From Eubacteriales Family XIII. Incertae Sedis bacterium (GTDB lineage Bacteria; Bacillota; Clostridia; Peptostreptococcales; Anaerovoracaceae): a stretch of DNA of 64,000 bases. The position numbers and the translations under genes were made by a program. Position 1 is the stretch's first letter. Each line of letters starts with the position of its first letter. This document shows positions 3,266 through 43,270 of this stretch, one piece after another. The DNA lies in contig JAISTX010000003.1 of NCBI GenBank assembly GCA_031272365.1, positions 1-64,000 on the forward strand, read 5' to 3'. The notes under the pieces were generated by a model, which did not search any database, had not been told where the DNA came from, and worked only from the letters and a program-made list of their open reading frames with translations.

Positions 3266-4183
3266 ATGAAAAAATGGGGTTTTTGGCGAGTTGCATCTAT
3301 CGGCCTCGGGGCGGTGTGCAGCATCATGCTGGCGCTCGGCCTTGCGGGCTGCGGCGGCGGGGCGGGCCCGGACGACGGCGGCAGCGCGTCGGCTGCGCCT
3401 GTCGAAGTGGAAGCGCCCGAAGAGGCCCCCGCCGAAATGCCCGTGCCGGAGGCCATCCCGGCAGAGGCGCTGGCGGGCGATTGGGTCGGCATTATTGGCG
3501 AAACCGGCATAGAACCGACCGTCCTCATTTCGCGGTACGACCTCTCGTTTGCGGAGGACGGCAGCTGCGTTTTCGGCTATTTTTACCAAATTCCGGCGAT
3601 TGACTATCTGACGTTCCCGCATTTTTTCGGCACCTACGCCTGGAGCCCGGACGCGGAAAGCACGCTGGTGCTGGACGTGCACCTCGGCGATTTCAACTTC
3701 ATCGAGGATCCGTCCGATGAGCTGAACGGGGGCTACGCCGAATGGTACGACCCCGGCGCGGACGCGCCAGAGGAAACGCTCAGCCTGACGTTTTCGGTGT
3801 TCCTCGACGACATCGGCGCACTGCACATCGAGTTCCCGGAGGATGTGCAGACCTCGGCCGGGGAAACCGTAGCGCACGCCGACATGCAAGCGATGCTGTT
3901 TCAGCAGGCCGGGGATGGCGCCGGTGATTTGATCGCCGGGCAGGAATGGAAGGGGACCGCCCCGGACGTACCGGTGTACCCGGCAGCCGCCTACACCACG
4001 ACCGACGTGCTCAACCTGCGGGAGCACCCCTACTCCACCTCGGACTACGGGATCATCAAGGAGCTCCCGGAGGGGACGGCGGTGCAAGAATACGGCGCGT
4101 ACGCGAACAACCCCGACTGGGCTTTCGTCCTCGTCGAGGACGGCTCCATCGGCTGGGTGAGCAAGGATTTTCTGGCGTCTTAG
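3266..4183 (+). CDS. Lipoprotein with C-terminal SH3b domain (305 aa)
   Basis: The N-terminus is a lipoprotein signal: MKKWGFWR, a hydrophobic stretch, then the lipobox LAGC, so the protein is anchored on the outer face of the membrane by a lipidated cysteine. A low-complexity Gly/Ala/Glu/Pro linker follows, then a central domain of about 150 residues with no recognised family (ALAGDWVGIIGETG...). The C-terminal 65 residues (TTDVLNLREHPYSTSDYGIIKELPEGTAV ... GSIGWVSKDFL) are a bacterial SH3 domain, a module that usually binds peptidoglycan. I chose ATG at 3266 rather than GTG at 3263 because AAAGGAG is then eight bases upstream. It stands alone, just ahead of a separately translated OYE gene, behind a promoter carried by the foldback element. 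Confidence 0.82.
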   Translation: MKKWGFWRVASIGLGAVCSIMLALGLAGCGGGAGPDDGGSASAAPVEVEAPEEAPAEMPVPEAIPAEALAGDWVGIIGETGIEPTVLISRYDLSFAEDGSCVFGYFYQIPAIDYLTFPHFFGTYAWSPDAESTLVLDVHLGDFNFIEDPSDELNGGYAEWYDPGADAPEETLSLTFSVFLDDIGALHIEFPEDVQTSAGETVAHADMQAMLFQQAGDGAGDLIAGQEWKGTAPDVPVYPAAAYTTTDVLNLREHPYSTSDYGIIKELPEGTAVQEYGAYANNPDWAFVLVEDGSIGWVSKDFLAS

Positions 4184-4217: not shown

Positions 4218-5240
4218 ATGTTATTCGAAAAATTCTCACTGCGCGGGGTGGAGTTCAAGAACCGGATTTTCATGGCGCCGATGTGCATGTATATGGCCGG
4301 CGAGGACGCGGCTGCCACCGACTGGCACTACATCCACTACGCGACGCGGGCGCAGGGCGGCGCGGCGCTCGTCATGCTCGAGGCGATCGCCGTCTCGCCG
4401 GAGGGGCGCATCACCTCGCAGGACCTGGGGCTCTACGACGAGGCGCACCTGCCGGGGCTGGCGCGGATCGTGGACGAGATCCACCGGATGGGCGCGAAGG
4501 CGGGCGTCCAGCTCGCGCATGCCGGGCGGAAGGGGCTGTCGAACGTCCCGGCCATCTACGCGCCGAGCGCGATCGCCTACGACGACGAGTCGCCCACGCC
4601 GGTAGCGGCGGACGAGGCGTACATCGAAAAGACGGTGGGGGACTTCCGCGCAGCGGCGGAGCGGGCCGCGCGGGTCGGCTTCGACCTCGCGCAGCTGCAT
4701 GGGGCGCACGGTTATTTCCAGGGCGAGTGGCTTTCGCCCCTGACGAACAAGCGCAGCGACGCCTACGGCGGCCCGGCGGAGAACCGCGTCCGCGTGCTGG
4801 GCGCGACCCTCGAGGCCATCCGGTCCGTGTGGCCGGACGAAAAGCCGCTCGGCGTGCGCGTCTCGGCGGAGGAGTACGAGGAGGGCGGCCTGCACCCCGA
4901 GGACGTCGCCGCGCTCCTGAACCTCGTGAAGGGGAAGGGGCTCGACTACGTCGACGTGAGCTCGGGCGGCGTCACGCCGTTCGTCCCGAAGGCGTCCCCC
5001 GGCTACCAGATCCCGTACGCGAAGACGGTCAAGGATCTGACGGACCTGCCCGTCGCGGGCGGCGGCCTCATCACGACACCGCAGGCAGCGGAGGACGTCG
5101 TCGCGTCCGGCAGCGCGGACTGCGTCTACCTCGGCCGGGAGCTGCTGCGCAACCCCTACTTCCCGCTCTGCGCGTCCGTCGCGCTCGGCGTCGACGTGCC
5201 TTGGCCCACGGCCTACGAGCGGGCCAAGCCGCGGCGGTGA
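4218..5240 (+). CDS. namA: NADPH dehydrogenase, Old Yellow Enzyme family (340 aa)
   Basis: A full-length FMN-dependent ene-reductase of the YqjM/NamA class. The N-terminal KNRIFMAPMCMY carries the cysteine (residue 23) and tyrosine (25) characteristic of the thermophilic-like OYE subgroup. The active-site pair lies in LHGAHGYFQGEWLSPLTNKRSDAYGG, and VAGGGLITTPQAAEDVV plus CVYLGRELLRNPYF form the FMN phosphate-binding end of the TIM barrel. Such enzymes reduce the C=C bond of alpha,beta-unsaturated carbonyls with NADPH in the cytoplasm. The start is supported by GGAAGGAGAG ten bases upstream. The gene lies 34 bases after the SH3 lipoprotein and may be co-transcribed; no functional link is evident. 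Confidence 0.9.
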   Translation: MLFEKFSLRGVEFKNRIFMAPMCMYMAGEDAAATDWHYIHYATRAQGGAALVMLEAIAVSPEGRITSQDLGLYDEAHLPGLARIVDEIHRMGAKAGVQLAHAGRKGLSNVPAIYAPSAIAYDDESPTPVAADEAYIEKTVGDFRAAAERAARVGFDLAQLHGAHGYFQGEWLSPLTNKRSDAYGGPAENRVRVLGATLEAIRSVWPDEKPLGVRVSAEEYEEGGLHPEDVAALLNLVKGKGLDYVDVSSGGVTPFVPKASPGYQIPYAKTVKDLTDLPVAGGGLITTPQAAEDVVASGSADCVYLGRELLRNPYFPLCASVALGVDVPWPTAYERAKPRR

Positions 5241-28675: not shown

Positions 28676-29796
28676 ACGAGAAAATCGCGTTTTTGCGGGG
28701 CTACGACGGGCCGCCGCTGAAGATCATGGAAGTGTGCGGCACGCATACGGCCGCGATCATGAAGAGTGGCATCCGCTCTTTTCTGCCCCCGGGCATCCGG
28801 CTCGTGTCCGGGCCGGGCTGCCCGGTCTGCGTGACGCCGACATCGTATATCGACGCGTGCCTCCGCGTCGCGGGGACGCCAGGCGGCGGCGCCCAGGCCT
28901 GCCTCGCGAGCTTCGGCGACATGCTGAAAGTGCCCGGGAGCGCGGGCACGACGCTGTCGGACGCGCTCGGCGCGGGGGCGAACGTCCGCATGGTGTACGC
29001 GCCCTTCGACGTCCTGCCGCTCGCGGAGGAAAACCCGGGCACGGAATACGTCGTCGCCGCCGTCGGCTTCGAGACGACGGCCCCGGCCTACGCGCTGCTC
29101 ATGGAGGAAGCGGACGAGCGGGGGCTCTCCAACATCCGCCTCCTGCCGGCGCTGAAATCCGCGCTCAGCGCGATCGACTACATCTGCGCCATCGGGGAGG
29201 ACGTCGACGCCTTCCTCTGCCCCGGCCATGTCAGCGTGATCACGGGCAGCCGCGCCTACGAGCCGCTCGCGGAAAAATACGGCAAGCCGTTCGTCGTCGC
29301 GGGGTTCGAAGCGCGGCATATCCTCGAGGCGGTGCACCGGTGCGCCATAGACGCCCTCGCCATCCGAAACGAAGGCCGCCCCGGCGCGGTCACGAACCTC
29401 TACCCGGAGGCGGTTTCCGAGGAGGGCAACCCGAAAGCCCTCGCCCTCATCGAGCAATGGTTTGAAAAAGAGGATACGCCGTGGCGCGGCCTCGGGACGA
29501 TCCCCGCGTCCGGCTACGCCCTGAAACAGGAAAGAAGGCGGTTCTCCTTTGGCGCTGTGGGGAACGCGTCCGGGGAACCACCTTCGGGTTCGCATGATCC
29601 TCAAGATCTAACGGATTTGCAGGCTTCGCAGGATTCCCTGCCACCGGGCTGCCGCTGCGGGGAGGTCATCCTCGGCCGTATCGACCCGGACGCCTGCCCG
29701 CTCTTCGGCGCATCCTGCACGCCCGCTCACGCCGTCGGCCCCTGCATGGTTTCCTCAGAGGGCGCCTGCGGCATCTGGTTCAAACATAGTCGATGA
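28672..29796 (+). CDS. hypD: Hydrogenase maturation protein HypD (374 aa)
   Basis: HypD holds a [4Fe-4S] cluster and assembles the Fe(CN)2CO unit with HypC. The conserved cysteine motifs are present: MEVCGTHTAAIMKSGI, GPGCPVCVTPTSYID, and the C-terminal cluster CRCGEVILGRIDPDACPLFG...GPCMVSSEGACGIWF. VVAAVGFETTAPAYALL and CPGHVSVITGS are also typical. The start is TTG at 28672, overlapping the hypC stop (TTGA); no ATG is available nearby. About 25 extra residues (SGSHDPQDLTDLQASQDS) sit before the C-terminal cysteines, in DNA of different composition, and look like a repeat-derived insertion. hypA and hypE are not found here. The gene's end overlaps the convergent giant gene by 17 bases. Confidence 0.93.
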   Translation: MNEKIAFLRGYDGPPLKIMEVCGTHTAAIMKSGIRSFLPPGIRLVSGPGCPVCVTPTSYIDACLRVAGTPGGGAQACLASFGDMLKVPGSAGTTLSDALGAGANVRMVYAPFDVLPLAEENPGTEYVVAAVGFETTAPAYALLMEEADERGLSNIRLLPALKSALSAIDYICAIGEDVDAFLCPGHVSVITGSRAYEPLAEKYGKPFVVAGFEARHILEAVHRCAIDALAIRNEGRPGAVTNLYPEAVSEEGNPKALALIEQWFEKEDTPWRGLGTIPASGYALKQERRRFSFGAVGNASGEPPSGSHDPQDLTDLQASQDSLPPGCRCGEVILGRIDPDACPLFGASCTPAHAVGPCMVSSEGACGIWFKHSR

Positions 29797-32700
29797 GCGC
29801 TTTCATCTCTTCGTTTTCCGGCGCTTCTTCTTCCGCTTTTTCCGTCGCGTACTTCGCCGTCAGCATCGTCAGCGCCACGGTCGCCGCGAGGATCACGAAG
29901 CTCCAGACCGTGTAGCGGTCCCCGACCACGACCGGGTTGGTCAGCATCGGCTCCGTCGCCGCGAAGAAGATGATGTTTGCCGCCGCCGCGAGGAACACGC
30001 CGATCGCAAAGCGCTTCGCCTTCTTCCGCTGCTTCTCTTCCACCTTCTCGATCATCTGCTTCCTGCGGAAGACGAGGAAGAGGAAGGCCAGGCCGAACAG
30101 GGACGCGATCAGGTTGAGCAGCGCCCAGGACGGGTCGGGCTCCACCGGCATCGCCTGCGGCGTCTCATCCGGCGCGATCACTTCGGGCTGCGGCAGGAGC
30201 TCCTTGATCGGCTCCGGCGCGACCTCGCGGATCGTCTCGATGATGCGCTCCGTCACTTCCCTCAGGATGGTCTCCGAGTGCGAATGGTGCACTGCGGCGA
30301 CCGGCTCCTCTTTCTTCTCGACCTTCACATCGCACACCGCCGTCACTTCGTTGTAGTCGCTGTCGACGACCGTGTAGGTCACGCGGTACGTGCCTCCGTT
30401 GCTGGTGTCCACGAACCCGGTGAACGTCACGCGGCTTGTGAGGTTGCCGTCCTCGACGTCCGTCGCCGTCACGCCGTCCATGGCGTTGAACGAGTCGTCC
30501 GCTTGCAGCGTGCGCGTCGCCGGCACGTTCAGCTTCGGCGGGTTGCCGGCTTCGACCTTCACCCGGACGGTCGTCCGGACCGTCTGCTTCGCTTTGACCG
30601 CGAACACGACGCTGTGCGTGCCTGCCTTCTTTGCAAGGTGGTCCGCGATATAGCCGTCGTCGTCCTTCACGAGCACCGGCACGGCCTTGCCGAAGTCCTG
30701 GCTGTCCTGGGTCACGCAGACCGCCTGCGCCTTCGCCGTGCTGATCAGCTCTTCCGCAGTGCCGAGCACCTGGCCGACACGCTTCGAGAAGCCATAGGCG
30801 CGGATCGCGTAGCCGTCCGCCACGACCCATTCGTCGCCGACGAGCACGATGCAGGATTTCTTCACCGTGTTGAAGTCGCTGTCGGTGACTTCATAGTTTA
30901 CCTTGTAGTACCCGGCTTTGTCCGGGTTGACCGGCGCGTCGAACTTCACCGCCGCCGTCAGGTCGCCGTCCTCATGGTCATCGGCCGTCACGCCATCCCG
31001 GTACTCCGCTTCGCCGAACGTTTCGCCGACGGCGATCTGCTTCACCGCGGGCACCGTCAGGATCGGCTCCTCGCCGGTGCAGACCATCGCTTTGATTTGC
31101 GTCGTCACGCTGTCACGATCCGAGACCGCGAAGGTGATGTTGTAGGTGCCCACGGTCGAGCAATACCCGCCGTTGTCTTTCACCTTTGCCTCGACGGCTT
31201 TCCCGAAGTCCTCCATCGAGGGATCCGTGCAGACCGCCCACACTTCCGCAGACGTGAGCATTTCCTCGTCCGTGCCGCTCACCTGGCCGCGCGTCTTCGT
31301 GAAGTCGACCGCGCGGATCGCATAGCCGTCGCCCAGTACCCATTCGTCGCCGACGAGCACCACGCTGGACGCCGCCACCGCATTGTGGTCGGAATCCGTC
31401 ACCGTGTAGGGCACGACATAGAAGCCTTCCGCCCCCGGCACGACCGTTTCGCCGTACGCCACCTGCGCGGTCAGGTCGCCGTCCTCTTCATCCGAGGCCG
31501 ACACGTCGGCTCTGTATTCCGCGTCGCCGAACACCGCGCCCTTGGCAATCTGCCGGACCGGCGGCACGACGAGCGTCGGGAACGAGCCCGGGATGACCGT
31601 GGCCTTCACCGGTATCGTCACCGTCTCTTTGTCCGTGACCGCCAGTACGATGTCGAACATGCCGTGCACGCAATCATCGTACCCGCCAAAGTCGGCGACC
31701 GACACCGGCACCGCCGCGCCGAAGCCCGGGTTGTCCTCGCCGCCGGCCAGCGTCTGCCGCAAGTCGATCGCGACCGCCCCTGCATACCGCACGGCTTCCT
31801 CCTCGGAGCCTGTCACCTGGCCGAGCCGCTTTGTGAAGCTGCTCGCGTTGATGGCATATTCCCCGTCGGGGTCGATCACCCAGGAGTCGCCGACGAGCAC
31901 CATGCCGCTCTTCGCGACCGTGTTGTCGTCGCTGTCCGTCACGGTGTACGTCACCTTGTAGAAGCCTTCTTTTTCCGCGTCGACCGTGCCCGTGAAGGAG
32001 ATGCCGGCGGACAGGGCCGCGTTGTCGTCCTCTTCGTCCGTCGCGAACACGCCCTGCATGTAGGACGGCTCCGTGTCCGCCTGCGCCCCCACCGGGAACG
32101 CGCCGCCGACCGGGATCTGCTTGACCGCCGGCACATGCAGCACCGGTTTGTTCGCGTTGGAGACGAGCATCGCCACGGAGATCTGCGTCTCCGGCTCCTC
32201 CGCCACGCGGAAGGTCAGCGTGAACGTCTGCTCATAGCCGTCCACAAGCGATGCCGCGCCCACCTCTGAGAAGCCGCCGTCGCTTTCAAGCGCGATGGTC
32301 CCCGCCTCCGTGAGGCCGTTCGTCCGCTGGTAGCTCTTCACATTGGCGTTCTTCGCCTCCTTCAGCGCCGCGAGGTAGCCCTCTGCGTCGCTCGAGAGCG
32401 CCAGCATCGCCTTCGCCTCGCGGATGTTGAGGCGGAAGCCCTTCGCCGTCATCGCGTATTTGTCGCCGTTCGTGCCGTTGCCGCCCTGGCTGTCGTCATA
32501 GACGAGCGCCTTCACGGTCTTCGTCATCGTCGGGTATTCGCTGATCGTCAGCACCGGGGTGTAGGTCCCCGCCGCCGCCGTGTATCCGCCGCCGGTCTGC
32601 ACCGCCGCCGTCTTCGCCGCGCCCTTCGTGTCCCAAGCCGCCGCGCCGGACTCCGCGAGGATCTGGCTCTCCTTGTCGGAGGTGGCCACATCGCCCTTCG

Positions 32701-35700
32701 CGATGACGAAGCTCTTGCCGCTCAGGATGTAATGTGCATCCCAGTCGAAGCTGCCGTCGTCCACGATGATGGCGCGCGTGTCGCTCTTCTTGCCGCCCAC
32801 GCTATCCGTCGCCGTGTACTTGACCTGCGTCACGCCGGCCACGTCCGCCGGGATCGCGATCTCGCTGCCGTCCGTCGCCGTGTAGGCCACGCCATCCGTG
32901 ATGTCGCGCCCGAGGCTATCCCGCGCGCTGACGCCCGCCAGGATCTGCTCGTCCGTCAGGTTGCCTTTCGCAGTGGCCTTCTGGTAGACCTGCGGCTTGT
33001 TCATCGTCAGCGTCGGCGCGGGCGTGTCGCCCACCGTCGCCGTGACCGCCACGGTCACCTTGTAGGTGCCCCCGGCCAGCGTCTCGTAGACGCCGAAGAC
33101 GATATCGTATTCGCCGTTCTCCGCTTTCAAACCGCCGAGGTCGGCCACATCCACCGTCGCGCCCGTGATGGCCCCGCTCGCGAGGATGTGCCTCGCGTCG
33201 GCGCCCGCCGCGCCGATGATCGCATCGTCGCCGTCTGCAAGCAGTTTCTGTGCCTCCGCCGTCGTCAGCGTCAGGTGGTTCGCCCAGATCGCGTAGCTGT
33301 CGCCCTTCGCCGGGTCGACCGGGCCCGTCACGAGCTCTTCCGCGTCGATGACCTCCGCCGCGATGCCCTTGTGGAGCAGCGCCCCCGGGCTGTTCGTATC
33401 GATGCCTTCTATCTCGATGCCGTCATACAGGCCGACTTCCTTCTTGTAGCCGCCGTCCCGGGACACGCTCACCACGTCGATCGTCGCGCCCGTCGTCCCG
33501 TCGTAGACCTTCGCCCCCGACTTCGCCAGAATGTCCGCATCGATGTCCGCCTGCGAGGCGCCGTCCGTCACGTCGTCGAGCTTCGTCACGAAGCCTTTCG
33601 CATACAGGACGCGCTCCGCGCCCACGACATAACGCCCGTCGTTCACGACCACCACGCGCTGCGCCGTCGCCGTGCTGCCGCCCGCGTCCGTCACGCTGTA
33701 GGACAGGTTGTAGAGCCCCGCCTTCGCCGTGTTGACCGTGCCGGTCACGACCAGCGCGTCCGCGATCGCCGCGCCGTCCTCTTTGTCGAAGACCACGACG
33801 CCCGTCGACTGCGCGTTGAAAACAATATCCGTCGCTACGCCGTCCTTGACGACGCGGCCTGTGCCGACTTCCAGCTCAACCGGCGTCGTCGCCGTGAGCA
33901 CCGGCGGCGTGTCCGCCGTCACGAAGGCCTTGATCAAGACCCCGCGCGTGCTGTCCTTGTCCACGCCGTAGACGACCGGGTAGCCCGCCGTGTTCACCAC
34001 AGCTTCAAAGCCGCCCTGGCTCTTGACCGTCACCTTCGCCGCCGGGTCCGCATCCGGCGTCAGCAGGATGACCCCCGCCTTCGCCTCGTCGATGAACCGC
34101 TGCTGCGTCGTGTCGGCGAGGATGTCCGCCGCCTCCGTCGTCGTGACGGAGAAGTCGCTCGCGTACACCGCGTATTTGCTGTCCTTGACGCCCGGGTCCA
34201 CGTGGCCGCTCTTGATCGTGCCCGTGATGTCCTTGCTCGCTGACTGGCCGCCCACCCCGGAGACCGTCAGCGTGAAGTCATAGGCGCCGGGCGCCGGCTT
34301 CGCGCCATAGCCCTGCGGCATCGAGACCACGACGGACGCCGTGATATCCGCGCCGTCGAAGTCGTACGCCTCCGCGTAGGACCACGACCGCACCTGCGTC
34401 GCGCTGCCGTCCACGACCTCCCGCTCCGCCGCGAAGTTGCGCGCCCCGAGGATCACTTCGGCGTTTTCATCAATAATATACCTGCCGTCCGTGACCACGA
34501 TCGCCCGCGTCGCCGGCACGGCGTCGTTGCCGTGGCTGTCCTTCACGGTATAGGTCGCGCTGTACACGCCCACGTGTTTCGTGTCGATCGCCGACACGCC
34601 GTTCGCCAGCGTGTACTTGACCGAAGTGGGCAGGATCACCCCGTCCTCCGCGTCGCTGACCGAGAGCGCGGCCTTGATCTCCGCCGCCGTCATCTCGTGC
34701 GACACCGGCGTCTGCTCCACGACGAGCGGGCGCTCTGAGAACGCGATCACCGGGATCTCCCCGTTGTCCACGTCCGCCGTGACCCGCGCCTTCGTGGCCG
34801 TTTCCGCCTTGACTTCAAAGACGACAGTGTACCTCCCGGCGTGTACCGTTTCATAGCCGCCCAGCTCCGCCACGTCCACATCCGCAGGCTTTCCGAAGTC
34901 CCCGTGCATCACATCGATGCAGACGGCCTTCGCCTCCGCGGCCTGCTTGGCCTCTTCCGGCGTGCCGGTGACCTGGCTGATGGTTTTTTCAAAATCGTGC
35001 GCGTAGATCGCGTACCGGTCGCCCAGCGTCCAGCCGCTCCCGAGCACGAGCGCCGTGATCTGCTTGCTCAGATCCCTGTGCGCCGCCACGGCGAGGGTCG
35101 GCGTATACGCGCCCTCTGCGGCCGCATAGCCGCCGTTGTCCGTCACGTCGACGTCTACGCTTTCGCCCTTCGTGTTCCAGGCCTTCGCGTCGGATTCGGC
35201 CTTGATCTGCGCCGCCCCCGCCACGACGTCCTTCGCCTCGATCACGAAGTTTTTCGCCTGCAAAATATACTCCTCGTCCCAGACAAAGCTGCCGTCGTCG
35301 ATGATGATCGCGCGCGTGTCCGTCCGCGAGCCGCCCACGGCGTCCGTGACGGTGTACCTCACCTGCGTCACGCCCGCCACGTTCGCCGGGATCTCGATGG
35401 CCCCGCCGTTCACGGCCGTGTACTCCACGTCCCCCGTGAGGTCGTGCCCGAGGCTGTCCTCCGCGCTGACGCCCGCAAGGATCTGCGCATCCGTCAACTT
35501 GCCCGCCTCGCTGCTGATCGGGTAGACCTGCGGCTTGTTCATGGTAAGCGTCGGGAGCTCGCTTTCGCCGACCGTGACGAGGATCGGCAGTTTCACGGAA
35601 TAATCATTCCCCGCCCGCGTCTCCTGCACGGCAAACGTCACCGTGTACTGGCCCGCCTTCGCTTCAAAGCCGCCCCGGTCGGCGACGGTGGCCGTTGCGT

Positions 35701-38700
35701 CCGCCAGCGTGCCGTCCGCGAGGATGTGCACCGCTTCCGCTTTCGCCAGCGCGATGATCTGCGCGTCCGCGCCGGCCATCGCGAGGAGCGCGTGCGCCTC
35801 CGCCGTCGTAAAGGTCAAATTGTTTGCCCAGAGGCTGTAGTTGTCGCCCGTCTCGGCGTCCCCGGGCCCCGTCGTGATCTCTTCCGCGTCCACGACCTTG
35901 GCCGTGACGCCCTTCTTCAGCGCCGTCGGCGGGTTGACCGTGTTCACGCCCTCAATCTCGATGCCCGCGTACTCGCCGGCTTCCTTCTTGTAGCCGCCGT
36001 CCTTCGCGACGGAAACCGCCTGCACCTCCGCGCCGGTCTTTCCGTCGTAGAGCTTCGCGCCGGACTTGCTCAAGATCTCCGCCTTGATCCCCGCCGGGTC
36101 GTCCGTCACATCGGACAGCTTCGTCACGAAGCCGTGCGCCGTGAGCACCCGGTCCGTGCCGACCACATAGCGCCCGTCGTTCACCACGACGATCCTTGGC
36201 GCCGTCACCGTGTTGTCGCCTTCGTCCGTCACGCTGTAGGTCAGCGCGTAGATGCCGACCGCGTCCGTGTCGATGGGATGCTGCGCATAGTCCCCGCCGT
36301 CACGGGACACCGTGACCGAGGAAGTGAGGACCCCGTCCTCCGGGTCGACGGCGCTCACGCCCGCCATGGGGTCGAAGGCCGCGCCTTTCGCCACCTCCAC
36401 CGGCGTCGTCACCGAGAGCACCGGCGGCTGGTCCGCCGTCACGGCCCCGTCGGCCTCCACGCCGCGCGCGCTGTCCTTGTCCACGCCGTAGACGACCAGG
36501 TAGCCCGGGTTCGCCTTCGCCGTCGCCGCGAAACCGCCGCGGTCTTTGACCGTCGCCTTCGCGTCCGGGTTTGCGTCCGGCGTCAGCAGCACGATGCCCG
36601 CGCGGGCCTGTTCGATCAGCTGCTTGTCCGTATCCTTCGCGAGGATCTTCGCCGCGACCGTGTTCGTCACGGAGAAATCGTAGGCGTAGACCGCGTATTT
36701 GCTGTCCTTCACGCCCGTGTCCACATGGCCGTCGATGACCGTGCCCGTGATCTCCTTGCGCGCTTCCTTGCCTTCCGCGCCCGTCGCCGCCAGCGTAAAC
36801 GCGTACGCCTTCGGCTGGGGGTTCGCCGTGTAGTCCTGCGGCTTCGCAACCGTGATGGCCTCGATGGCCGCGCCGTCGAAATCGAACGCTTCCGCGAAGG
36901 ACCACAGCAGCACCTGCGCGTCGGAGCCGTCCACGGCGTTCTTCTCCGCAGCGAAATTCCGCGCGCCGATGACGACGCCCGCGTTTTCATCAATAACATA
37001 CCTGCCGTCCGTGACGACGATGGCCCGCGTCTTCGGCTCGGCCTCGTTGCCCTGGCTGTCGCTCACCGTGTAGGTCGCGCTGTAGACGCCGACATACCGC
37101 GTGTCGATCGACGTGACGCCGCCCGCCAGCGTGTAGCTGACATCATCCGCCGTCAGATCGTCATAGTCGTCTTCCACCTTGAGCTTCGCCTTGATTTCCG
37201 CGTCCGTCATCTCGTGCGGCGCGGCCGTCTGCCGGATCACGAGCGGGCGCTCCGTCAGCGTGATCTCCGGCGGCATGCCCGCGACGGGCAGCTCCAGGCC
37301 CTTCTCCCCGTCCGGCGTCATGCCGTTCACGATGAGGTAGCCCTTGTTGGTGGCCTCGGTCGGGTAGTTGCCCTCCCCGTCCTGCGCAAGCGACGCACGG
37401 ACGATCATATACACTTCCGTCGCGTTGCCGCCCGGCTTCTTCTCGTGGCCGGAGAGGTATTTTCCGATCAGCTCGGGGTCGAACGTAAACGAGACTTCGC
37501 TGCCGCTCTGGACCCTCGTGCATTCCGTCACCTCGGTATTGCCGACCATCAGCTTCACATTCCATGCGTCTGCGGAATCCATCCCGCTCACGTCCGCGAG
37601 CCGCAGCCCGTCGCTCATGACGTCCTTGATCTTGATGTTCGCAAAGCCCGCGAGGCTCTCCGGGACCTCGAAGCGGATCTTGTACTGGAGCATTTCGTTG
37701 AAATCGGTCACCGTGTAGTTTGAGCCGTACACGGCGCCGCCCTCGATGTCGCTCGTCTTGACGAGCTTCTCAAAGCTCTTGCGCAGATCCAGCGCGATGT
37801 CGTCCTTCGGCGTCCCGTAGCCGACGTCGACGCGCTTCGTCTGCACGGCGGCTTCGCCCAGCTCGATGGATATCCCCTCGACGAGCCCGTTCACGCCCGC
37901 GTTCGGCGCGGCCGTCGTGATGCCGCGATCGCCCTGCGGCGTCACGAAGCGCAGCTGATAGAGGCCTTCGCCGACCTCATAGCGGTACGTGCCGTCCGGC
38001 TTCGTCGTCTGGACGCCGCCTTCGGCCGCCGTGTATTTCTGCCCGTTCCATTTGTAGAGCACAACGCCGACGCCGCCCAGCGCCGTGTCGCCGTCCGCCG
38101 TGTTGTACAGCCCGTCGCAGTTTGCGTCCACGAACGCGATACCGAAGATCCGGCCGGTGTTGTCGATGGCCGGGCCCGTCTGCCAGACGTCCTCCGGCGC
38201 CTCGCCGCCTTCCTCGCCCTCGTCGAGCTCGCTTTCGTCCCCTTCATAGTCCGGGTTCAGGATGAGCTGCCCGCGGTTCGTCACCGCCGTCGGCCATTCA
38301 TCGCCCAGCTTCACGAGCCGCGCCTTCAGGATGAACTCCACCGTCGCGCCCTCGAGCCCCTCGAAATCCGTGATGCCGTAGGTGACGGTCTGCAGCAGCG
38401 TCCCGTTGTCATTGAACACGCCCGTCTGCACGTCGCCGTTCTTGAGCGTGACCTTCTGCCCGTTGATCTTCACGACGGCCGCGTCCTTGACGTCCTGCGC
38501 ATAGTCGAGGTTCACGTCCATGATGTCGCGGATCTTCAGCTCGCCGTAGCCGGACAGGTCCTCCGGCAGCGTGAAGGACAGGCGGTACTCCAGCACCTCC
38601 GTGCTGTCGGTCACCGTCCGCCCGGTGTCATAGCCCGCGCCGCCTTCCTTTTCCGGGTTCCAGACCTCTTTTGCGAAATTGCTCCCGAAGCCATCCGTGT

Positions 38701-41700
38701 CCGGCCAGGCATAGCCGCCGTTGCGCGTGATGACATACGAGCCGGACTGGTCGTAGTCGACCACCAGCGCCTCGCTCATGCGGGTCGCCGTGTCTGTGTT
38801 CGTCAGGGCGTAGGGCGAGAGATTTGCAAACTGCACCACGTATTTGCCGTCGCAGACCGCGAACGAGAACGAGCCGTCGCTCTCCGTGAACGTCGTCTGC
38901 ACCGGGTGCACGAGGTCGCTTTCCTTGAACAGTTTCACCGTCTTGCCGGCGAACCGCTTGTTTTCGTCGCCGCCGACCACGCCGTCCGCGTTCAGGTCCT
39001 CCCACAGCACGCCTTCAATAATGCCGCCGACGATGTGCGCCTGCACGGGCATGCTCAGCTGGTCGTCGCCCTCGCAGCCCAGCACGACCTCTTCGGTCTT
39101 TTCCGCCTGATTTTTCGCCAGCTTCGTGTATTTCTTTTTGTCCGCCACCTTCACGACGCCGTTCGCCGGCTGGTGGTCGGAGATGTTCCAGGCCTGCGCC
39201 CCGGATAGCGACTTGATCTGCGCGTCCTTCGCGGCGTCGTCCGCCGGGATGTCGCCCGAGGACACCGAGAAGTCCTCCGCGTCGAGGATGTATTTGCTGC
39301 CGACGGCATAGCCGACCGCCACCGTGCGCTCCACGACCGTCTCATGGTCGTCGCTGTCCGTCACGCGGTACGTGACCCAGTAGAGCCCCTTCGAGGACGT
39401 ATCGATCGCGTTCGCGCCGCCATAGGCCGCGCTGCTGTTCCGGTCGCCGAGGAAGATCTGGATCCCGGATGTCACGTCACCGTCGAAGTCGTCGCTCGCC
39501 GACACGCCCGCGGCCGGGTCAAACGACCCACCCAGCGGAACGCTCACGGGATCCGCCCCGCTGATCACGGGCGCCTTCCCGTCATAGACATACCACGGCA
39601 CCTGCGCCTTCGTAGCAGGTTCCTGCTGTACATGCACGATGAACACATCGTCATAATCCGCCGTATTCGCGTGGAAGTCCTTGCTGTCAAACACCGTCGT
39701 CGCATTCGATGTCTGGAGTTTGCCGCCGTCCCAGCTTTCGATCTTGAACGAAGCCACCTGCGCGTCCGCTATGAGCGTCGCACCGTCCACGGCACCCGCC
39801 GCCGCCAGGTTGTGGCGCGTCGTCACCGGCGTGTATTCGATGAAGTAGTTTTGTCCCTGTTCGACGTACGGCGCCGACGTCACATGCACCGTGAATTCCT
39901 CCACGAACACCGGCTTCTCCGTGATGCAGAGGCGCACCGTATAGTCGCCCGGTTGCGCTTTGTCCCCGTATAAATAATTTGTCTTGTCGGCGACCACTTC
40001 GATGGCCGTCGATTTGTCGCTTCCGGGTTTCGTGTAGTCAACGCCCTTCGCTTTCAAAACCGCGATCAGGTCGGCCGCGGTCTTCACCTGTTTTGCCTGC
40101 TCGAGGCCAAGCACGGCGTTTGTCCCCGTGATGTCGTACCGTGCCGCCTCCACGATCACCTTCGCGCCGCCGGGGAGCGTGTCGTCATGATAGACAGTGT
40201 CCGCAAGCGGGTTTTGGTTGCCGTGCGTATCCGTCAGCAGCAGCCGGATCTCGTCGTTTGCCGCAAGCTGGATATTGGACGGGATGTCGTAGCGCCATGT
40301 CCCGTCCGGATTCAGCATGCCCTCGACGACCGCGCCGCCCGCGTTCTTGATGATCTCGCCGTTCTTCGCGGCGATGAGCTTCACGGGCGCGAGTGAGCCC
40401 GCAAGCTCCCGGTCACCGTTGTTGTTTGCGTAAACGCTCCACGTACCCTCGAGCAGGGAGCGGTTTGCGTACAGCGGATCCGTCTCGACTGTCAGAGGTT
40501 TCGGAGCCACTGAGTCCGTGACCGTGACCGAGCCGCCGAGCGAGTCCGGACGCCGCGCCAGATCCGCGTGAATCGCATAGGCATGATTTTGCTCCGGGCG
40601 TCCGCGCCACACATCGGAGACGCGATAGGAATACCCCTCTTTTGCAAAATCACCGAGGTCGACGATGGCGATGCCTTCGTAGGTCGTCCCGTACAGATCC
40701 GCCGACGCCTGCGTCGAGGCGGAGAATGTGCGGCCCGTCGGATTGCCGTTGCGGTCGTATTCGGCGACGATGACCGTCGAGTCGCCCGTATCCGCCGGCT
40801 TGCCGACGTCGTCAAGCCCCTCCGGCACGTAGACGATGACGCCGAGCTTTTTGTCCGTATTTTCGATCGGCACGATGTCCTTGATATACGGCGGCGCGTT
40901 GTTGGCGGAGATACGCGCCAAACCGCCGATATGGAAGCGCGAGGAAAATCCGGGCACCGTCAAGGCGGAATCGACCGTGCGCCAATCCGCCACCTGTGTC
41001 AAATTGGCGCCGTAAGCCGGGACATCAAAATAGTAATCGCCAACATAGTAGGCATGATCCGCCGTGGTTTCGAACGCGCGGCCTTTTTCGTAGCCGTCCA
41101 CGTTTGGGTTTGGGCTTTTCGGAGTCCAAGAGTTGACAGGGGTGGCACCCTGCTGAATATCCCAGACGCGAAACGCCGTTTGTTTCATGTTGATGTAGTT
41201 GTTACCTCCAAGGTATTTCCACATGGAAAGCGCCGGCGGCCCCATGTCCCCGGACTCCGTTGTGCCGAGCCATCCCAGATTTTTGGACGTGGACGCGATG
41301 TCAAAATACCTGGGCTGGTCCATCGTAAAGGCATAGTTGTAACCATCAATGACGCCGTCGTCCGCTTCGCGGAGCTGCGGCGCGCCGTGGGCGACGAAGA
41401 TGGACTCGGGTCCGAGGTTTAGTTTGAAGTTGTAACCGTTGTTGTTGAAAATCGCGGGACCGTTATCCGCGTAAATCTCCATCGCTGATTTGTAGCCGGA
41501 AACCGTCACCGCATTGTCGTTGCTCAAATCAAAGAGGATGCCGCAACTGTCCGCACGGTTGAGATGAGTGGCGTTTTCCTCTTGGTCTCCTGCGTTGTGA
41601 ATATAGCAAACCGCCCCTTCTGTAAAGGCAAAAGTGTTTTTGTTACTGCTGAAATAGATGCCCGCCATATGCCGACTGCCGTCGCCGCAGTTGTTCCAGT

Positions 41701-43270
41701 CATATTTCCACATGCGGTCGACATCATCCGGCGCTTTACGCTCAATCTGGAAGCTGGCGCCTTGATAGCCTTGAATATTGGAAGTTTGTAGCACGTTTAC
41801 AACAGCACCGACAGCATTATAGCCGGATCCGTAGCTGCGCCGCGCTTCAAAATACACTTCCGTGCCCGGCGAATAGAAGGCGTAGGTCGCGTTCGGGATG
41901 TTGAGGTTGACCGCGCTACCGCGCCCGCCCGTCACGATGACCGAGAACTTGGCAGGGCCATCCGTGCCGACCTGCATCCAACCGGTCTTGCCGTTGACGC
42001 TGAACGCTGCGTCGTACCACCGGCTGTCGCCCGTCTTGCCGTCCGCGTAGCCGTTGGAGCGGATCTGCACGTCCGCGCCGGAAAGGATGGCCACCGTGGC
42101 GCTACCGCCATGCGTGGTGGTCGAACCCGGATGCCCAAGCGTGACGGCCGCGTGCGCGCCGCCATGGCTGTTGGCATCGTCCGGATTGGTCTTGTTGATG
42201 ACCACCTTGGCGTTCTGATGCGCGGCAAACTGCCGGGAGATGTCGAGCGTCGGAGCGCTACCCTGCAGGTTGATGCCGACGGCCTGCCCGATAAGGTTGA
42301 GCGTCGTATCGGAGTTTTCCAAAAAGTGCACTGCGGCCACGTTGATATGGCCTTTGTCTTCGCCCTGATTGGTGCTGTAGCCGCCGTTCGACGTCCAAAC
42401 GTTCGTGCCTTTGAAATTGAGCAGGGAGTTTGGCACGTTGACGAGCGGTGCCGTGGCGCCCGCTGCGCTTGATACGTTTTCGAGCGTGATGTTCCAGCCG
42501 TAGGTGTTTGCCTCGTCCGAAGCATTGATCCCCGTGCTCCGCTTGACGTTGCGGTGGATGATGAAGTGCGACGCCTTGTTGTAGTCGTCGGTACCATTGC
42601 TCTTGAAGCTGTTTTTCTTCACGACGAGGTTTTTGACGATGAACTGCCTGGGCGGATTGATGTTGCCCACGTCGCCGAGGATGAGGCCCTTGTCAACTTG
42701 TTTGCCGAAGTCGAGCGTATGGCCGCGGCCGTCGATCACCAGATCCGCCGTGCGCGCCGTGAACAGCCCCGCATCGGAAGTAGTGCTGCTGCCGGTATAG
42801 GAAATGTCATTCTTGAGGTAGATGGCCGTGGTGGCCGCGTTGTCGTACGCCGCCTTGAACTGGTCCCACGTGGAGACTTCCACGTCGCCGTCGCCGAGCG
42901 GCTCGATGAGGTCGTCCAGCGCCTCGATGTCGCCGAAGGCCTGCACCCCCTGCGCATCGGCGCCCGCGCCGCTCTCCGGCAGCACGGCGCCGGGCTCGTC
43001 CGGCTCCGCGTCCACCTGCACGTCCCCCGGCTCGTCCGTCATGTCCACGGGAGCCGTGCCGCCGTCAGGCGCATCCTCGCCCGCAGGCGTGTCCGCCGGC
43101 GCGTCCGCCCCGGCTTCCCCCGTCGCCCCGTCCGTCATTTCCGCCTGCGTTTCCGCAGGCGCGGCCGGCTGCTCGCCGCTCGCCCGTACGCCGACAGGCA
43201 CAACCGCCTGGGCGACGAGGATCGCTGCAATCGCGATGACCGTGAATTTTTCCTTCAAATTTCTCATCAT
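29780..43270 (-). CDS. Giant repeat-built surface protein (4,496 aa)
   Basis: An uninterrupted frame encodes a secreted protein. It starts with a signal peptide (MRNLKEKFTVIAIAAILVAQAVVPVGVRA) and an Ala/Pro/Asp/Glu-rich linker to about residue 120. A region to about 800 resembles a right-handed beta-helix (AIYLKNDISYTGS, LVIDGRGHTLDFG). Two SdrD B-like domains follow near residues 1430 and 1710 (GVLWEDLNADGVVGG, GIAFVDANCDGLYNT). The rest is a long array alternating 'YAIxAxxF'-type modules with DUF5011-like Ig domains (GVSAxDxEDGxLT...VTYTVTDSDGN). Near the C-terminus come a charged helix, HSHSETILREVTERIIETIR, and three membrane segments with a cytoplasmic tail. There is no LPXTG signal or SLH domain. 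Adhesion, cell-wall or S-layer-like roles are all possible. No further gene is needed to explain these 13.5 kb. Confidence 0.9.
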   Translation of the reverse strand: MMRNLKEKFTVIAIAAILVAQAVVPVGVRASGEQPAAPAETQAEMTDGATGEAGADAPADTPAGEDAPDGGTAPVDMTDEPGDVQVDAEPDEPGAVLPESGAGADAQGVQAFGDIEALDDLIEPLGDGDVEVSTWDQFKAAYDNAATTAIYLKNDISYTGSSTTSDAGLFTARTADLVIDGRGHTLDFGKQVDKGLILGDVGNINPPRQFIVKNLVVKKNSFKSNGTDDYNKASHFIIHRNVKRSTGINASDEANTYGWNITLENVSSAAGATAPLVNVPNSLLNFKGTNVWTSNGGYSTNQGEDKGHINVAAVHFLENSDTTLNLIGQAVGINLQGSAPTLDISRQFAAHQNAKVVINKTNPDDANSHGGAHAAVTLGHPGSTTTHGGSATVAILSGADVQIRSNGYADGKTGDSRWYDAAFSVNGKTGWMQVGTDGPAKFSVIVTGGRGSAVNLNIPNATYAFYSPGTEVYFEARRSYGSGYNAVGAVVNVLQTSNIQGYQGASFQIERKAPDDVDRMWKYDWNNCGDGSRHMAGIYFSSNKNTFAFTEGAVCYIHNAGDQEENATHLNRADSCGILFDLSNDNAVTVSGYKSAMEIYADNGPAIFNNNGYNFKLNLGPESIFVAHGAPQLREADDGVIDGYNYAFTMDQPRYFDIASTSKNLGWLGTTESGDMGPPALSMWKYLGGNNYINMKQTAFRVWDIQQGATPVNSWTPKSPNPNVDGYEKGRAFETTADHAYYVGDYYFDVPAYGANLTQVADWRTVDSALTVPGFSSRFHIGGLARISANNAPPYIKDIVPIENTDKKLGVIVYVPEGLDDVGKPADTGDSTVIVAEYDRNGNPTGRTFSASTQASADLYGTTYEGIAIVDLGDFAKEGYSYRVSDVWRGRPEQNHAYAIHADLARRPDSLGGSVTVTDSVAPKPLTVETDPLYANRSLLEGTWSVYANNNGDRELAGSLAPVKLIAAKNGEIIKNAGGAVVEGMLNPDGTWRYDIPSNIQLAANDEIRLLLTDTHGNQNPLADTVYHDDTLPGGAKVIVEAARYDITGTNAVLGLEQAKQVKTAADLIAVLKAKGVDYTKPGSDKSTAIEVVADKTNYLYGDKAQPGDYTVRLCITEKPVFVEEFTVHVTSAPYVEQGQNYFIEYTPVTTRHNLAAAGAVDGATLIADAQVASFKIESWDGGKLQTSNATTVFDSKDFHANTADYDDVFIVHVQQEPATKAQVPWYVYDGKAPVISGADPVSVPLGGSFDPAAGVSASDDFDGDVTSGIQIFLGDRNSSAAYGGANAIDTSSKGLYWVTYRVTDSDDHETVVERTVAVGYAVGSKYILDAEDFSVSSGDIPADDAAKDAQIKSLSGAQAWNISDHQPANGVVKVADKKKYTKLAKNQAEKTEEVVLGCEGDDQLSMPVQAHIVGGIIEGVLWEDLNADGVVGGDENKRFAGKTVKLFKESDLVHPVQTTFTESDGSFSFAVCDGKYVVQFANLSPYALTNTDTATRMSEALVVDYDQSGSYVITRNGGYAWPDTDGFGSNFAKEVWNPEKEGGAGYDTGRTVTDSTEVLEYRLSFTLPEDLSGYGELKIRDIMDVNLDYAQDVKDAAVVKINGQKVTLKNGDVQTGVFNDNGTLLQTVTYGITDFEGLEGATVEFILKARLVKLGDEWPTAVTNRGQLILNPDYEGDESELDEGEEGGEAPEDVWQTGPAIDNTGRIFGIAFVDANCDGLYNTADGDTALGGVGVVLYKWNGQKYTAAEGGVQTTKPDGTYRYEVGEGLYQLRFVTPQGDRGITTAAPNAGVNGLVEGISIELGEAAVQTKRVDVGYGTPKDDIALDLRKSFEKLVKTSDIEGGAVYGSNYTVTDFNEMLQYKIRFEVPESLAGFANIKIKDVMSDGLRLADVSGMDSADAWNVKLMVGNTEVTECTRVQSGSEVSFTFDPELIGKYLSGHEKKPGGNATEVYMIVRASLAQDGEGNYPTEATNKGYLIVNGMTPDGEKGLELPVAGMPPEITLTERPLVIRQTAAPHEMTDAEIKAKLKVEDDYDDLTADDVSYTLAGGVTSIDTRYVGVYSATYTVSDSQGNEAEPKTRAIVVTDGRYVIDENAGVVIGARNFAAEKNAVDGSDAQVLLWSFAEAFDFDGAAIEAITVAKPQDYTANPQPKAYAFTLAATGAEGKEARKEITGTVIDGHVDTGVKDSKYAVYAYDFSVTNTVAAKILAKDTDKQLIEQARAGIVLLTPDANPDAKATVKDRGGFAATAKANPGYLVVYGVDKDSARGVEADGAVTADQPPVLSVTTPVEVAKGAAFDPMAGVSAVDPEDGVLTSSVTVSRDGGDYAQHPIDTDAVGIYALTYSVTDEGDNTVTAPRIVVVNDGRYVVGTDRVLTAHGFVTKLSDVTDDPAGIKAEILSKSGAKLYDGKTGAEVQAVSVAKDGGYKKEAGEYAGIEIEGVNTVNPPTALKKGVTAKVVDAEEITTGPGDAETGDNYSLWANNLTFTTAEAHALLAMAGADAQIIALAKAEAVHILADGTLADATATVADRGGFEAKAGQYTVTFAVQETRAGNDYSVKLPILVTVGESELPTLTMNKPQVYPISSEAGKLTDAQILAGVSAEDSLGHDLTGDVEYTAVNGGAIEIPANVAGVTQVRYTVTDAVGGSRTDTRAIIIDDGSFVWDEEYILQAKNFVIEAKDVVAGAAQIKAESDAKAWNTKGESVDVDVTDNGGYAAAEGAYTPTLAVAAHRDLSKQITALVLGSGWTLGDRYAIYAHDFEKTISQVTGTPEEAKQAAEAKAVCIDVMHGDFGKPADVDVAELGGYETVHAGRYTVVFEVKAETATKARVTADVDNGEIPVIAFSERPLVVEQTPVSHEMTAAEIKAALSVSDAEDGVILPTSVKYTLANGVSAIDTKHVGVYSATYTVKDSHGNDAVPATRAIVVTDGRYIIDENAEVILGARNFAAEREVVDGSATQVRSWSYAEAYDFDGADITASVVVSMPQGYGAKPAPGAYDFTLTVSGVGGQSASKDITGTIKSGHVDPGVKDSKYAVYASDFSVTTTEAADILADTTQQRFIDEAKAGVILLTPDADPAAKVTVKSQGGFEAVVNTAGYPVVYGVDKDSTRGVLIKAFVTADTPPVLTATTPVELEVGTGRVVKDGVATDIVFNAQSTGVVVFDKEDGAAIADALVVTGTVNTAKAGLYNLSYSVTDAGGSTATAQRVVVVNDGRYVVGAERVLYAKGFVTKLDDVTDGASQADIDADILAKSGAKVYDGTTGATIDVVSVSRDGGYKKEVGLYDGIEIEGIDTNSPGALLHKGIAAEVIDAEELVTGPVDPAKGDSYAIWANHLTLTTAEAQKLLADGDDAIIGAAGADARHILASGAITGATVDVADLGGLKAENGEYDIVFGVYETLAGGTYKVTVAVTATVGDTPAPTLTMNKPQVYQKATAKGNLTDEQILAGVSARDSLGRDITDGVAYTATDGSEIAIPADVAGVTQVKYTATDSVGGKKSDTRAIIVDDGSFDWDAHYILSGKSFVIAKGDVATSDKESQILAESGAAAWDTKGAAKTAAVQTGGGYTAAAGTYTPVLTISEYPTMTKTVKALVYDDSQGGNGTNGDKYAMTAKGFRLNIREAKAMLALSSDAEGYLAALKEAKNANVKSYQRTNGLTEAGTIALESDGGFSEVGAASLVDGYEQTFTLTFRVAEEPETQISVAMLVSNANKPVLHVPAVKQIPVGGAFPVGAQADTEPSYMQGVFATDEEDDNAALSAGISFTGTVDAEKEGFYKVTYTVTDSDDNTVAKSGMVLVGDSWVIDPDGEYAINASSFTKRLGQVTGSEEEAVRYAGAVAIDLRQTLAGGEDNPGFGAAVPVSVADFGGYDDCVHGMFDIVLAVTDKETVTIPVKATVIPGSFPTLVVPPVRQIAKGAVFGDAEYRADVSASDEEDGDLTAQVAYGETVVPGAEGFYVVPYTVTDSDHNAVAASSVVLVGDEWVLGDGYAIRAVDFTKTRGQVSGTDEEMLTSAEVWAVCTDPSMEDFGKAVEAKVKDNGGYCSTVGTYNITFAVSDRDSVTTQIKAMVCTGEEPILTVPAVKQIAVGETFGEAEYRDGVTADDHEDGDLTAAVKFDAPVNPDKAGYYKVNYEVTDSDFNTVKKSCIVLVGDEWVVADGYAIRAYGFSKRVGQVLGTAEELISTAKAQAVCVTQDSQDFGKAVPVLVKDDDGYIADHLAKKAGTHSVVFAVKAKQTVRTTVRVKVEAGNPPKLNVPATRTLQADDSFNAMDGVTATDVEDGNLTSRVTFTGFVDTSNGGTYRVTYTVVDSDYNEVTAVCDVKVEKKEEPVAAVHHSHSETILREVTERIIETIREVAPEPIKELLPQPEVIAPDETPQAMPVEPDPSWALLNLIASLFGLAFLFLVFRRKQMIEKVEEKQRKKAKRFAIGVFLAAAANIIFFAATEPMLTNPVVVGDRYTVWSFVILAATVALTMLTAKYATEKAEEEAPENEEMKALIDYV
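32160..34735 (-). repeat. Large tandem duplication in the giant gene, copy B
   Basis: The second copy carries the same landmarks 2.5 kb further on: TRAIVVTDGRYIIDENAEVI, SKYAVYASDFSVTT, GVILLTPDADPAAKVTV, VVVNDGRYVVGAERV, TMNKPQVYQKATAK and DDGSFDWDAHYIL. The end near 32160 is approximate because the last module has drifted most. Confidence 0.75.
34736..37252 (-). repeat. Large tandem duplication in the giant gene, copy A
   Basis: Reading on the minus strand from ERPLVIRQTAAPHEMTDAEI at 37252, about 839 codons follow before the same motif (ERPLVVEQTPVSHEMTAAEI) recurs at 34735. The order of modules inside is the same in both copies: VGVYSATYTV, TRAIVVTDGRY, GARNFAAE, SKYAVYA, ILLTPDA, VVYGVDKDS, VVVNDGRYVVG, TMNKPQVY, GVTQVRYTVTDAVGG and DDGSFVWD. 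Copies have diverged at many residues, so the duplication is old. Confidence 0.8.

Follow-up and report, generated by a model that had tools for sequence, protein, structure and literature searches.

The window analysed here, a stretch of 64,000 nucleotides from a draft assembly (88 contigs, 89% complete), carries on its minus strand a single open reading frame of 4,496 codons (29780-43270) that begins with ATG and contains 0 internal stops. Its codon-position GC of 0.62/0.44/0.87 follows a pattern like that of the adjoining genes, which argues that this giant frame is coding. The gene is flanked by sahH on one side and by the hydrogenase maturation genes hypF and hypD on the other. In a MAG of the same genus (Md513_bin127, "Clostridiales Family XIII bacterium"; locus L033), the C-terminal 766 residues of a homologue are 54% identical to the giant protein, and the gene adjoins hypD end-on as it does in the window (hypD identity 65%), so that we regard it as the ortholog at the same locus. 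Going by the isolate names of two named MAGs, which we take to be of termite-gut origin, the host is presumably a gut bacterium with close kin among termite-gut Clostridia; a literature search for surface giants of termite Family XIII bacteria returned no relevant paper.

Domain anatomy of the giant protein

From the N- to the C-terminus the protein comprises a signal peptide, a PF20585 head, two degenerate M-like modules, an Ig-like domain with the first clear M module (M1), SdrD_B and K2N domains in the order SdrD_B/K2N/SdrD_B/K2N, a long array, a linker and membrane helices (Table 1). The initial annotation had described a beta-helix-like head, two SdrD_B-like domains and a long array of alternating modules. 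The head is borne out by a PF20585 match (E 9e-15), and the array by 11 I domains and 16 M modules, plus 2 degenerate copies, arranged mostly as I-M-M; after the second K2N domain come six I-M-M triplets, then three I-M pairs and one last I. The SdrD_B domains also stand, with PF17210 matching in two stretches (E 3.5e-13), but that description had omitted two K2N isopeptide-type domains of the RrgB type (TIGR04226). Because the lysine and asparagine positions are kept in both K2N domains, isopeptide bonds are plausible in each. The degenerate M-like pair sits where homologous arrays begin M-M-I.

A search of the PDB by sequence with the head gave no match. Within the head, aa 401-800 (window positions 40870-42070) have a GC content of 56% and a GC3 of 0.70; the corresponding values in the array are 66-67% and about 0.91. 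This lower-GC region is perhaps of separate origin.

Table 1. Features of the giant gene and its product (positions in the window)
Feature	Positions	Strand	Evidence
Whole gene, giant surface protein of 4,496 aa	29780..43270	-	ORF and codon-position GC
Signal peptide, aa 1-32 (hydrophobic stretch aa 10-28)	43175..43270	-	hydropathy
Distal head, about aa 120-870	40661..42913	-	PF20585 match and GC
PF20585 pectate-lyase-like adhesive domain, aa 130-269	42464-42883	-	profile match, E 9e-15
Two degenerate M-like modules, about aa 1043-1230	39581..40147	-	weak, 3.5 and 4.4 bits
First clear Ig-like domain (aa 1233-1323) and M1 (aa 1324-1416)	39023..39574	-	profile matches
SdrD_B domain 1 (PF17210)	38783..39010	-	profile match
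K2N isopeptide-type domain 1 (TIGR04226), aa 1541-1670	38261..38650	-	profile match; K and N positions kept
SdrD_B domain 2, about aa 1702-1824	37799..38167	-	second PF17210 stretch; boundaries by eye
K2N isopeptide-type domain 2, about aa 1825-1995	37286..37798	-	second TIGR04226 stretch; K and N positions kept
Higher-order repeat copy 1, aa 1997-2836	34763..37282	-	self-comparison, triplet matches, tree
Triplets of copy 1 (each I-M-M)	a1 36434-37282, b1 35564-36424, c1 34763-35557	-	self-comparison, triplet matches, tree
Higher-order repeat copy 2, aa 2837-3706	32153..34762	-	self-comparison, triplet matches, tree
Triplets of copy 2	a2 33911-34762, b2 33026-33904, c2 32153-33022	-	self-comparison, triplet matches, tree
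C-terminal part of array, aa 3708-4320: three I-M pairs (first = class d) and last I	30311..32149	-	171-residue period
Linker, charged and proline-rich, aa 4321-4380	30131..30310	-	sequence
FILTED anchor domain (NF052597), three membrane helices, aa 4382-4478	29837..30127	-	profile match and hydropathy

Modules I and M and their occurrence in other genomes

Module I is the PF16403 Ig-like domain, above the gathering cut-off in 10 stretches and scoring 218.5 bits over the whole protein. Module M, of about 88 residues, follows the pattern YxIxAxxF...AxA...V.D.GGY...GxYxVxFxV...V.A.V. Leave-one-out profiles, built with both the tested copy and its twin excluded, recovered the M copies at 9 to 63 bits, three of them weakly (near 9-12 bits), compared with 7 bits for the best shuffled domain. 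When 16 members were scanned against Pfam and NCBIfam none rose above cut-off, the best E was 0.007 and no family was common to two members; M profiles searched by sequence against the PDB gave chance matches only (best E 0.13). Confident AlphaFold2 models were obtained for the I-M pair (mean pLDDT 97.2) and for M alone (97.1), both modules having Ig-like neighbours. The M model aligned with the INT domain of ZmpB (7jrl; Z 8.3, 1.9 A over 70 residues) and with Internalin K (InlK, 4l3a; Z 8.1, 2.3 A over 72 residues), the matches to these two proteins spanning Z 8.0-8.3, 1.9-2.3 A and 68-72 residues overall, and Foldseek returned a best E of only 0.025 with a probability of 1.00. The I and M models match successive domains of InlK, residues 361-437 and 437-513 respectively, and in the M model a short helix follows the third strand. 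Together, the lack of a library match and the modelled sandwich point to M as a diverged Ig-like domain. The module had been put forward as one that could not be named; this holds for its sequence, which is new as a family in the libraries searched (Pfam and NCBIfam), but the fold predicted for it is not new, being the Ig-like sandwich common in bacteria. The separate leave-one-out profiles and the separate model rule out that M only reflects the Ig profile.

In its own genome M is found in two proteins, the giant of the window and a 5,667-residue giant on contig C49. At the level of the order, 19 of 394 genomes match M, mostly from the same family, although several weaker matches fit the C-terminal half only and may be ordinary Ig domains. 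A wider M profile, which included the G464 row itself, matched four of 398 genomes at the level of the phylum (the window's own, G464, G649 and G729), with G464, whose match is an LPKTG protein, also found independently by an I-M profile. A scan of the genome collection with four close M modules hit three loci, which lie in two MAGs of Family XIII. G333, G386 and G022 hold homologous giants that share the M-M-I pattern and have a PF20585 head, and PF20585 lies at the distal end in four genomes.

The matches in G649 (G649:C23:160177-160383, L074) and G729 (G729:C21:32697-32900, L075) are of another kind: here a PotA-type ABC ATPase carries two M-like modules after its TOBE region. These ATPases are cytoplasmic proteins of 525-529 residues in which the modules score 29.5 and 18.4 bits and the insert is unnamed in Pfam; it is present, at 81-100% identity, in nine of the 13 genomes of G729's family. 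The occurrence of an adhesin-type module within a transporter ATPase is odd.

A cyclic higher-order repeat in the stalk

The initial annotation had also proposed that the protein grew by layered duplication, with an 839-codon block copied in tandem on top of smaller repeats. Self-comparison gave a top offset of 846 with a score of 636, as against at most 54 in five shuffled copies, and the offset drifts between 839 and 848 through small indels. The best BLASTP self-match pairs aa 1998-2766 with aa 2837-3618 at 55.4% identity over 792 columns. It follows that the ninth domains of the two copies (aa 2750-2836 and 3601-3706; about 25-38% identity) are not a good pair. Set in the phase of the triplets, the copies run from 37282 to 34763 and from 34762 to 32153, about 10 codons off the phase first described. 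The layering itself is confirmed at the levels of I and M modules, I-M-M triplets and block copies by reciprocal best matches among the triplets (T1-T4, T2-T5 and T3-T6) and by the tree described below. The twin blocks are 66.9% identical in DNA, so the duplication is old; a recent block duplication is ruled out by this figure, and an assembly artefact is unlikely with copies no more alike than this.

The tandem copy is real and is not a one-off event. The array contains three distinct triplet classes, a, b and c, followed by a fourth, d, and the C49 paralogue holds triplets closest to each of a, b and c as well as to the first C-terminal I-M pair of the window protein. A maximum-likelihood tree built on 42 I-M units set each class apart from the others as one group, with bootstrap support of 95-100 (support values 100/100, 98/94 and 95/88 for a, b and c and 99/98 for d). 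The groups mix units of the window protein, the paralogue and, in b, c and d, the relative L034, and group d also encloses the other C-terminal units, left unlabelled. With labels assigned by sequence similarity, independent of order, the classes run a b c a b c d in the window protein, b c d a b c d a b a b c in the paralogue and b c d in L034. In the paralogue, 10 of 11 steps obey the cycle, a value equalled by 43 of 1,000,000 shuffles, and class spacing is about 1,225-1,258 or 817-838 residues. Since the same classes recur in the same cyclic order in paralogue and relative, the sequences identify the 839-residue block as a single turn of a higher-order repeat, a-b-c or a-b-c-d, that predates the divergence of the two giants. 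Triplet copies are more alike within one chain than between chains, which points to later re-duplication or homogenisation. The G333 triplets do not group into a-d in the tree, so the cycle is not family-wide.

Other arrangements were seen in giants of other genomes. In G333 (G333:C33, L046), triplets at aa 3061 and 3367 are 92% identical over 167 residues, a recent duplication. A giant of G714 (G714:C1:257000-268000, L071; 3,342 residues read) lacks M but has about 30 PF16403-like domains; its Ig domains also follow a constant five-member series, which repeats about every 413 residues.

Anchor, probable function and known systems

The initial annotation placed the anchor in three C-terminal membrane helices, with neither LPXTG nor SLH. 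Hydrophobic helices were found at aa 4383-4401, 4421-4439 and 4454-4472, and there is neither SLH nor LPXTG; a sortase-anchored protein would have that last motif, one helix and a basic tail. The anchor nevertheless has a name already, as the tail scores 51.1 bits with the three-helix NCBIfam family FILTED (NF052597), whose cut-off is 40; a literature search for FILTED gave no paper. The genome has nine FILTED matches and three sortases. Contig C49 (119 kb) carries three more giant surface frames (L043-L045) of at least 4,019, 5,667 and 1,709 residues, two of which end in FILTED. The homologues in G333 and L034 have a FILTED C-terminus. That in G386 (L047, G386:C270), although built on a head and array of the same type, has LPQTG, a single helix and a terminal RRRR as its tail. 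The same body carried on either tail suggests that both serve the same place and supports an anchoring role for FILTED, so that FILTED and LPXTG-type anchors look interchangeable. Such an exchange on one protein body matters as evidence for FILTED as an anchor, and in a 2021 survey nearly half of the detected fibrillar adhesins lacked a recognised anchor (PMC8286594).

We consider it probable that the giant is a fibrillar-adhesin-like surface protein. Its signal (aa 10-28) and FILTED tail point to an extracellular location, a PF20585 adhesive region, whose label is itself "putative", lies at the terminus away from the anchor, and the stalk consists of repeated domains (11 I, 16 M; two-domain model). 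An adhesive N-terminus, a stalk and a C-terminal anchor are the rule for fibrillar adhesins (PMC8286594, PMC9210967). Judged from sequence, the protein would be exported by Sec and held in the cell membrane at its C-terminus by the three FILTED helices, with about 29 Ig-like domains (I and M) and four SdrD_B or isopeptide-type domains forming a long rod. An Ig-like domain is about 4 nm long, which would give the rod a reach of roughly 100 nm and hold the beta-helix head off the cell, where it probably binds a gut surface or polysaccharide. The sequences show that the stalk was built in layers, by joining I and M modules as I-M-M triplets, by divergence of the triplets into classes a, b, c and d, and by copying of the ordered class set as a unit before the paralogue split and again later in each giant. 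The heads of the paralogues differ, PF20585 in the window protein and DUF6273 with InlB-type repeats in that of C49; taken with the lower GC of the head, this suggests that heads have been swapped on a common stalk.

An S-layer or matrix protein, with the repeats as coat or spacer and the head as another structural unit, would have identical anatomy, and the fold neighbours of M and I do include the S-layer proteins SlpA, SlpX and SbsC, while several giants are present in one genome. We nonetheless find this unlikely, as those neighbours score Z about 5-6 against 7.5-8.3 for the INT, InlK and chitinase Ig domains, the anchor lies in the membrane with no SLH, and differing heads are what different ligands would lead one to expect. 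Less likely still are repeats that mainly permit rapid length change by recombination, as in periscope proteins: long tandem repeats are present in a surface protein and their number varies among homologues, but the 67% DNA identity of the twin blocks is too low for frequent recombination, and near-identical copies occur only in G333, whereas adjacent SHIRT domains of periscope proteins are 82-100% identical (PMC8201768). The TIGR04226 and PF17210 domains and the three sortases of the genome might recall the backbone of a sortase-assembled pilus, a reading we hold to be very improbable, since the protein has no sorting signal and ends in FILTED, those domains make up four of about 35, and a scan of adjacent genes showed no sortase.

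The conserved cyclic order of the stalk classes is the most unusual part of this fibrillar-adhesin-like protein, and a literature search on higher-order repeats in adhesins gave nothing relevant. The classes may have been kept distinct and in this order, in paralogues and related genomes alike, because each has its own job, with the cycle rather than the single domain as the functional unit and M a new Ig-like family also recruited into PotA; we offer this position-coded stalk as a speculation that is rather improbable. If true, the classes might, for instance, bind different ligands or make lateral contacts, each in its own register, between giants lying in parallel. The protein illustrates a route to very large bacterial surface proteins, from domain to triplet to multi-class cycle to giant, and M adds an Ig-like module that neither of the two libraries searched contains, its copies being numerous enough for a family to be defined.

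Several known systems come close to the giant. The fibrillar adhesins of Monzon et al. (PMC8286594, PMC9210967) are likewise single long chains with an adhesive-type head at the distal end, a stalk of repeated Ig-like domains and a C-terminal anchor; unlike them, the giant has the library-absent M, an ordered four-class higher-order repeat and a three-helix anchor that is neither LPXTG nor SLH. It resembles the FILTED surface proteins (NF052597) in a C-terminal domain above cut-off, although FILTED spans only its last 100 residues. Module I is PF16403 (Bact_surface_Ig-like), and the M model shares the Ig-like sandwich of Big_3 (2kpn), ZmpB INT (7jrl) and Internalin K (4l3a), from all of which M differs in its short helix and in having no significant sequence match. 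With periscope proteins (PMC8201768) the giant shares long domain repeats in tandem as a stalk, but its repeats are old and diverged where theirs are near identical.
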